A stretch of 64,000 bases of DNA. It comes from Aliiroseovarius sediminilitoris. Lineage in GTDB: Bacteria; Pseudomonadota; Alphaproteobacteria; Rhodobacterales; Rhodobacteraceae. The stretch is from assembly GCF_900109955.1 (NCBI RefSeq), contig NZ_FOJB01000001.1, positions 496,001-560,000 of the forward strand. The letters are read 5' to 3'. The translations under genes and the position numbers were made by a program. The notes beneath the pieces are model-generated. The model saw only the letters and a list, made by a program, of their open reading frames with translations, was not told the DNA's origin and ran no database searches. How positions within the stretch are numbered: position 1 is the stretch's first letter; every line of letters starts with the position of its first letter. Below, in pieces: positions 24,042-25,953 of the stretch.

Positions 24042-24563
24042 ATGAGTATTAAACCGATCCTTATTCACCCCGATCCACGGCTTAAAAAAGTCGCCGAAGT
24101 GGTGCCAGATTTGTCTGACGACCTGCGCCAATTGGCCGACGACATGCTGGAAACTATGTATGACGCGCCGGGCATTGGTCTGGCCGCGCCGCAGGTGGGC
24201 GTGCTGACGCGACTGATCGTGATGGACTGCGTGCGTGAGGATGACGAGCCTCCGCAGCCTGTGGTCATGTTCAATCCCGAGGTCATATTGTCCTCGGATG
24301 ATCTGAACACCTATGAAGAAGGCTGTCTGTCGATCCCCGAGCAATATGCCGAAGTCACCCGCCCCAAAGAGGTTTCGGTCCGCTGGGTCGACCGTGACGG
24401 CAACGTGCAGGAGCAGGACTTTGACGGGCTGTGGGCCACTTGCGTGCAGCACGAGATCGACCACCTGAATGGCAAGCTGTTCATCGACTATCTGAAACCG
24501 CTGAAACGGCAGATGATCACGCGCAAAATGCAAAAACTGAAACGTGAAATGGCGCGGATGTGA
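24042..24563 (+). CDS. def: Peptide deformylase
   Basis: 173 residues with all three catalytic motifs intact: GIGLAAPQ (residues 44-51), EGCLS (93-97, metal ligand Cys95) and QHEIDH (136-141, ligands His137/His141 and catalytic Glu138). It removes the N-formyl group from new proteins. It heads a def - def-like - fmt operon, overlapping the next gene with GTGA. Confidence 0.97.
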   Translation: MSIKPILIHPDPRLKKVAEVVPDLSDDLRQLADDMLETMYDAPGIGLAAPQVGVLTRLIVMDCVREDDEPPQPVVMFNPEVILSSDDLNTYEEGCLSIPEQYAEVTRPKEVSVRWVDRDGNVQEQDFDGLWATCVQHEIDHLNGKLFIDYLKPLKRQMITRKMQKLKREMARM

Positions 24564-25057
24564 CCCATCGCCCGTTTCTGAGATATCCGCACAAATGCCT
24601 GCGCACCGCAGCTGATCCGGTGACCGAGGTGACGGATGACACCCGCGCGATATGGGACGAGATGATCGAGGCGATGGACGCCATGCCGGGCGTTGGTCTG
24701 GCGGCGCCCCAACTCGGGATTATGCAGCGTTTGGCGGTGGTGGATGCCTCAAACGAACGCGGCAAGGCGGTCAGGATGGCGAACCCGGAGATACTGTATC
24801 GGTCCATCGAGTTTCGTGAGCACGAGGAAGCCAGCCCGAACTTGCCCGGTGTTTCGGCGGTGATAAGTCGCCCGCGCGCGGTGACGGTTCGGTTTCTTGA
24901 CGAAAACGGAGCAGCGCAGGAGCAGGATTTTGTCGGCATCTGGGCCACCTCGGTTCAACACCAGATCGACCATTTGAACGGGCGGATGTATTTCGATCAC
25001 CTGTCCAAGGTGAAGCGCGATATGCTAATCAAGAAAGCAAGGAAACTGGCGCGATGA
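24560..25057 (+). CDS. Peptide deformylase-like protein, probable pseudoenzyme
   Basis: 165 residues from GTG inside the def stop. The fold is clearly deformylase, with [10 protein letters not shown] intact (residues 44-53). However, EGCLS is replaced by EASPN, so the metal ligand Cys is Ser92, and HEIDH is HQIDH, so the catalytic Glu is Gln135. His134 and His138 remain. Each change is one base from the active codon (AGC vs TGC, CAG vs GAG). The frame is intact, the gene is coupled to def and fmt, and there is no sign of decay, so it may be a non-catalytic partner or have a new activity. Confidence 0.93.
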
Positions 25058-25953
25058 GGCTTGTGTTCATGGGCTCGCCCGATTTCTCGGTGCCGGTGCT
25101 GGAGGCTCTGGTGGATGCCGGCCACGAGATCGCCGCTGTCTATTGCCAGCCACCACGCCCCGCCGGGCGCGGCAAGAAGGACAGGCCCGGTCCGGTCCAT
25201 GCCCGGGCCGCGGAACTGGGGCTTCAGGTGCGCCATCCGGTGTCGTTGAAGGATGCCGATGAGCAGGCGGCGTTTGCCGCGTTGAACGCTGACGTTGCGG
25301 TGGTCGTGGCCTATGGCCTGATCCTGCCGCAAGCGGTTCTTGATGCGCCCAAGCATGGCTGTCTGAACATCCATGCGTCGCTTCTGCCGCGCTGGCGTGG
25401 GGCAGCGCCCATTCATCGCGCGATCATGGCAGGAGATCCGGAAACCGGCGTTTGCATCATGCAGATGGAGGCTGGATTGGACACCGGCCCTGTTCTGCTG
25501 CACGAGGTGACACCGATCGGCGCACAGGAAACCACGGCGGAACTGCATGACCGCCTGTCGGCCATCGGTGCACGTCTGATCGTCGAGGCGTTGGGCCGCC
25601 TGCCCGATCTGACCCGGGTGCCGCAAGCTGAAGACGGTGTCACCTATGCCCACAAGATCGACAAGGCCGAGGCGCAGATTGACTGGACCCGTCCGGCCGT
25701 TGAAGTGGATCGCCTGATCCGCGGGTTGTCGCCATTCCCCGGTGCGAAATGCGATATGGGGGGCGAACAGGTAAAGTTGCTCGCTTCACGTGTCTTGGAT
25801 GGTTCGGGCAAGCCCGGTCAGGTTCTGGACGGGTTCACCATTGCCTGCGGTGAGGGCGCGGTTGAAATCCATCGCGCCCAACGTCCCGGCAAACGTGCGA
25901 TGGAAGCCGAGGATTTCCTGCGGGGTTTTGACCTGCCCGACACGGTGAAATAG
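25054..25953 (+). CDS. fmt: Methionyl-tRNA formyltransferase
   Basis: 299 residues, ATG inside the preceding stop. N-terminal formyltransferase domain: [18 protein letters not shown] at residues 2-19, and [20 protein letters not shown] near residue 107 containing the catalytic Asn/His. The C-terminal tRNA-binding barrel runs from about 205 to the end. It formylates Met-tRNA(fMet) using 10-formyl-tetrahydrofolate. It completes the deformylation/formylation operon. Confidence 0.97.

Follow-up and report, generated by a model that had tools for sequence, protein, structure and literature searches.

The 64,000-nucleotide stretch of Aliiroseovarius sediminilitoris (Rhodobacteraceae) analysed here (the window; contig NZ_FOJB01000001.1, positions 496,001 to 560,000) carries, between the peptide deformylase (PDF) gene def and the methionyl-tRNA formyltransferase gene fmt, a second PDF gene whose product has lost both the metal-binding cysteine and the catalytic glutamate. 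This protein, called type C beside the ordinary Def (type A), has probably been retained as a non-enzymatic helper rather than being a copy in decay, as judged from its sequence and those of its orthologues. The replacing residues were fixed in every orthologue compared, and the constraint on type C was nearly that of its neighbours, a little below that of Def. We tentatively propose a pseudo-deformylase docked at the ribosomal tunnel exit, where it would bind N-termini or tune the access of Def. The features of the locus are the following.

24042..24563, + strand: def (type A), ordinary catalytic peptide deformylase with EGCLS and HEIDH (open reading frame and profile match).
24560..25057, + strand: pseudo-deformylase (type C), GTG start, 165 amino acids (open reading frame, PF01327 match, alignment of orthologues).
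24560..24563, + strand: GTGA stop/start overlap of def and the pseudo-deformylase (sequence).
24689..24712, + strand: motif I, G44-Q51, GVGLAAPQ, with Gln51 invariant in 149/149 (alignment).
24827..24847, + strand: altered motif II, E90-A-S-P-N-L-P96, with Ser92 for the metal-ligand Cys and Pro93 for Leu (alignment).
24959..24973, + strand: altered motif III, H134-Q-I-D-H138, with Gln135 for the catalytic Glu and both His kept (alignment).
25007..25051, + strand: C-terminal helix, residues 150-164, with Lys/Arg at the E. coli K150, K157 and K160 contact positions (AlphaFold2 model, alignment, and PMC12690207, which like PMC7683392 and PMC11194573 is cited here from partial text).
25054..25057, + strand: ATGA stop/start overlap of the pseudo-deformylase and fmt (sequence).
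25054..25953, + strand: fmt, methionyl-tRNA formyltransferase (open reading frame and profile match).

Altered active centre of type C

The frame at 24560-25057 contained no internal stop. The first-pass annotation, made from the DNA of the window, had described an intact frame coupled to def and fmt by GTGA and ATGA, a paralogue with Ser92 and Gln135 in place of Cys and Glu, and retention of both His ligands and the fold. The open reading frame and the junction sequences agreed with the first point and the alignment with the second, and the third was confirmed by His134 and His138 in 149/149 orthologues and by an AlphaFold2 model, which showed the PDF fold from end to end with the C-terminal helix included. 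Def and type C were identical at 72 of 168 aligned positions (43%). Type C matched Pfam PF01327 (Pep_deformylase) with 138.5 bits (cut-off 22.8), and it also scored above the cut-off of the TIGR00079 peptide deformylase equivalog (128.5 against 103.95), so automatic annotation may call it an enzyme, and it may be included when active PDFs are counted in databases. A PF01327 search of the whole genome found no PDF gene beyond def and type C. The closest relative of type C among the matches listed was that of an uncultured Aliiroseovarius sp., with 93% identity.

The motifs EEGCLSIP and HEIDH of Def were EEASPNLP and HQIDH in type C. Neither the Pro beside the lost Cys nor the basic C-terminal helix features in the first-pass annotation. 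In the alignment with E. coli Def, the metal Cys was replaced by Ser92, the next Leu by Pro93, the catalytic Glu by Gln135 and the second Cys by Ser131, with Gln51, Glu90 and both His kept. Among 149 distinct type C orthologues of at least 140 amino acids (identical rows counted once, five short fragments left out and the locus L183 included; 182 type A, 69 type B and 24 outside PDFs were collected alongside), Ser92, Pro93, Gln135, His134, His138, Gln51, Glu90 and Gly46 were invariant, Ser131 occurred in 148, and position 94 was Asn in 137 and Cys in 12. The Cys of EGCLS and the Glu of HExxH, which mark a catalytic PDF, were therefore altered in all 149, and the two His and the Gln of motif I were present. 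Motif I was largely kept, with Tyr45 in 11%, Gly48 in 10% and variation at its X position. Conservation of Ser92 and Gln135 across Rhodobacterales had been named beforehand as the point to check, and orthologues with EGCLS or HEIDH restored as the evidence that would speak against an altered class; the two residues were conserved throughout the family, and neither motif was restored in any type C orthologue examined. Loci L063-L142 were found by patterns with HQID or EASPNL and so lean towards the signature. The same residues were fixed in 77 loci with both genes that were found by whole-protein scores (L183 left out), and the weakest-scoring type C orthologues, deliberately retrieved, kept the signature as well.

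In these 77 loci, six sites were fixed differently in type C (at least 95%) and in Def (at least 90%), namely W32, M42, S92, P93, S131 and Q135. The mean entropy of the type C pocket, taken as our own list of positions based on the E. coli structure, was 0.55, versus 1.35 for the rest of the protein (permutation p 0.0002). The residue replaced by Pro93 corresponds to Leu91, a mobile neighbour of Cys90 in PDF. Proline carries no backbone NH, and the NH next to the Cys is presumably part of the oxyanion hole, so Pro93 may also remove that group. That type C serves as a decoy for actinonin and other PDF inhibitors seems unlikely, since it has lost the metal ligand on which hydroxamates depend.

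Selection, history and distribution

The ratio of nonsynonymous to synonymous substitution rates (dN/dS) was calculated for 79 genomes (the pattern-found loci and the window), which gave 3081 pairs. Of these, 505 fell into the dS bins 0.1-0.6, 0.6-1.0 and 1.0-1.5 (5, 235 and 265 pairs), dS above 1 being near saturation. The median dN/dS in the three bins was 0.132/0.261/0.186 for type C, 0.112/0.255/0.170 for Def and 0.164/0.244/0.180 for Fmt, and the median dN over all pairs was 0.238, 0.209 and 0.225, respectively. The comparison with def that the first-pass annotation had suggested thus placed type C close to both def and fmt. Its statement that there was no sign of decay also held, in view of a pocket that varied less than the remaining positions and of the six sites fixed differently from def. 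None of the computational checks named in that annotation spoke against its reading of a protein that may bind the ribosome, formyl-Met peptides or Def without deformylation, or may have another activity. Decay in single genomes does exist (a degenerate type C in L183 and a broken one in L187), and it looks different from the family-wide pattern.

In a tree of 122 PDFs, whose bootstrap had not settled, all 36 sampled type C proteins grouped in a single clade (100/100) whose stem measured 1.1 changes per column; this suggests a history of fast change followed by constraint. To judge from these sequences, type C is of single origin and is held by selection in most lineages.

A protein search of 295 Rhodobacteraceae genomes gave matches in 287. 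By manual reading of the match table, 247 had a best E-value of at most 1e-49, 40 had weaker PDF matches and 8 had none. At the loci of 35 of the 40 weak-match genomes, type C was absent in 31 (L174 and L198, both counted here, showed no fmt either), cut by the contig end in two (L172, L179), degenerate in one and broken in one; the remaining five had a single PDF match each and were judged from that match. In six loci without type C (L173, L175, L188, L191, L200, L201), the def-fmt junction was tight: the aligned fmt start followed def at a distance of -1 to 10 bases, which would fit a clean deletion of type C or its absence from the outset.

All 61 genomes drawn from the order belonged to Rhodobacteraceae, and all 61 scored at least 241.9 bits. 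The best score outside the family was 165.7 bits in a class sample of 385 genomes (5 of the family) and 162 bits in a phylum sample of 150 (6 of the family), and the family members of both samples scored 277-323 bits. Catalytic motifs were present at all 25 outside-family loci retrieved. Within these class and phylum samples, type C has so far been seen only in Rhodobacteraceae. A scan of genome contigs gave at least 595 pattern matches and at least 591 relatives, of which the best 80 were kept. A phage-borne origin was rejected, since the 90 pattern matches in viral contigs included no relatives, and so was a plasmid-borne origin, since only one of the 998 matching plasmid records reached at least 60% identity (a 1.58 Mb replicon of Pseudorhodobacter turbinis).

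Among the 80 loci L063-L142, the order of open frames was A-C-fmt in 43, A-B-C-fmt in 34 and otherwise in 3. Four-base overlaps, with starts guessed by script, occurred at 32 of 91 A-C, 58 of 69 B-C and 46 of 156 C-fmt junctions. Type B is a third PDF with a GRGLA motif, found within or adjoining the def-fmt operon in many family members (for example L008, L011, L013-L017, L020, L022-L024, L028 and L032). It formed one clade (100/99), was variable (mean identity 49%, 32 rows) and, as the reverse of type C, nearly always had EGCLS/HExDH-type motifs and had lost the basic residues of the C-terminal helix. In one type B copy, of an uncultured Pelagimonas (L139:4473-5001), ENALS and QVMDH replaced EGCLS and HExDH; by its motifs this copy is a separate loss of catalytic residues.

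Proposed role at the tunnel exit and its alternatives

The contacts of E. coli PDF to uL22 and 23S rRNA are L149, K150, R153, K157, K160 and R163 (PMC12690207). Lys or Arg stood at the positions of K150, K157 and K160 in 148, 149 and 148 of the 149 type C orthologues, so that type C appears to keep the basic helix by which E. coli PDF binds to the ribosome. As we infer it, type C would be made together with Def and Fmt and would use this helix to dock at the tunnel-exit site on uL22 to which Def itself binds. There it could hold or shield emerging N-termini without hydrolysis of the formyl group, or it could restrict access for Def and for methionine aminopeptidase, whose binding site overlaps. 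As a result of such non-hydrolysing presence, the timing or selectivity of deformylation would be tuned. A more specific form of the proposal is more doubtful, namely that type C would be a ribosome-bound reader of formyl-Met through which a pseudo-enzyme regulates co-translational deformylation, with the ancestral functions of catalysis and docking divided so that Def has both, type B catalysis only and type C docking only. Deformylation is usually seen as an automatic early step of translation, and a gene encoded in step with def and under selection near that of def suggests that it is regulated in a large bacterial group.

Several observations weigh against this proposal. Type C did not keep L149, R153 and R163, half of the six E. 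coli contacts given above. The R153 position was Lys or Arg in just 23 of 149 (in def likewise 0 of 182), the L149 position was Val in 42%, Thr in 27% and Leu in 19%, and the R163 position was Arg in 34% of type C versus 91% of def; in addition, structural need could explain the conservation of the helix. The pocket was more variable in type C than in Def (entropy 0.55 versus 0.17), and, across the same set of 77 loci, type C proteins were on average 61% identical and Def proteins 68%. The PDF tree grouped type C with the PDFs of other families (80/90) and not with the def of its own family; because the stem is so long, this place is unsure, and type C may descend from this def, from an older copy or from a different lineage. 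Type C was absent in up to 36 of the 295 family genomes (31 at the locus and 5 by single match), and this scattered absence indicates a role that is not essential. When mapped on a gene tree built from Def and Fmt of 82 loci, out of 178 usable ones, its presence needed 17 changes, as compared with a mean of 22.6 and a lowest value of 17 in 200 shuffles, gene-tree noise and assembly gaps inflating the count; scattered as the changes are, many losses of type C are probable. The first-drawn branch of this tree (midpoint root; L218-L220) was without type C.

Among the alternatives, type C may be a partner subunit or regulator of Def that alters its activity or stability, like pseudo-subunits elsewhere. 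This is rather unlikely, even though type C adjoins def or type B with the coupling overlaps given above and type B was rarer without type C (3/29 versus 32/78, Fisher p 0.0024, uncorrected for kinship and from non-random loci), since genomes without type C manage on def alone or on def and type B. Many PDFs are monomers, which also counts against such a partnership. Unlikely as well is a new catalytic activity, in which the rebuilt pocket (Ser92, Pro93, Asn/Cys94, Ser131, Gln135 and the two His) would act on a different substrate and might do so with a metal site of another kind. The type-specific residues fixed at the old active centre, the conservation of the pocket above the rest of the protein and the two invariant His speak for it, but no third ligand is obvious. 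A new three-His metal site with His88 was rejected because His88 was present in only 87% of the 149 orthologues, and a Cys ligand shifted to position 94 was rejected with Cys at that position in just 12.

It is improbable that type C moonlights outside translation as B. subtilis DefA does on the kinase PtkA (PMC11194573), because the adjacency to def and fmt in nearly every one of the loci L063-L142 and the basic helix point to translation. A weak or conditional deformylase, as PMC12690207 suggests for type 3 PDFs with altered motifs, is quite improbable. Altered motifs do not always abolish activity (PMC12690207), and Gln51 and both His were kept in type C; however, three catalytic positions were jointly altered and fixed, and a change of Cys90 or Glu133 alone inactivates other PDFs, Cys90 being required in Salmonella PDF (PMC7683392) and E133A inactivating DefA, the second role of which is kept (PMC11194573). 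A decaying duplicate without function is hardly credible. The broken or degenerate copies and the scattered genomes without the gene speak for it, and a dN/dS close to that of def and fmt and the invariance of the new residues, a sign of purifying selection across the family, speak against it.

Comparison with known deformylases

Literature searches for peptide deformylase as a pseudoenzyme found nothing, and no title among the matches listed concerned an inactive PDF class of Rhodobacterales. In the sections of PMC12690207 consulted, no statement was found of a fixed inactive class among the clustered PDFs of this order. Inactive PDFs and the clustering of PDF genes are known; a family-wide, presumably inactive version, fixed in the operon and with a basic docking helix, appears to be new. 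In Rhodobacterales reference species, 98.1% have clustered PDF genes and 62.5% have three together, the rationale being called "elusive" (PMC12690207), and type C is a concrete candidate answer to why they cluster.

Type C resembled the catalytic type-1 PDF of E. coli in its full-length fold, the Gln of motif I, both metal His and Lys/Arg at K150, K157 and K160, and differed from it in Ser92, Pro93, Gln135 and Ser131. With DefA acting on PtkA it can be compared as a PDF with a second role independent of catalysis; a difference is that DefA itself is described as an active deformylase, and its second role lies outside translation (PMC11194573). As an extra PDF of the def-fmt operon, type C resembled type B, which keeps the motifs of catalysis and loses the basic residues of the helix. 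Inactive accessory type 3 PDFs exist in Staphylococcus aureus and Streptococcus pneumoniae (PMC12690207), and these, like type C, are paralogues with altered catalytic motifs that share their genome with an active PDF. According to the description of type 3 in that source, its motifs I and II are altered, whereas in type C motifs II and III are altered and motif I is largely kept; in contrast to type 3, the change in type C is fixed through the family and the gene lies between def and fmt.
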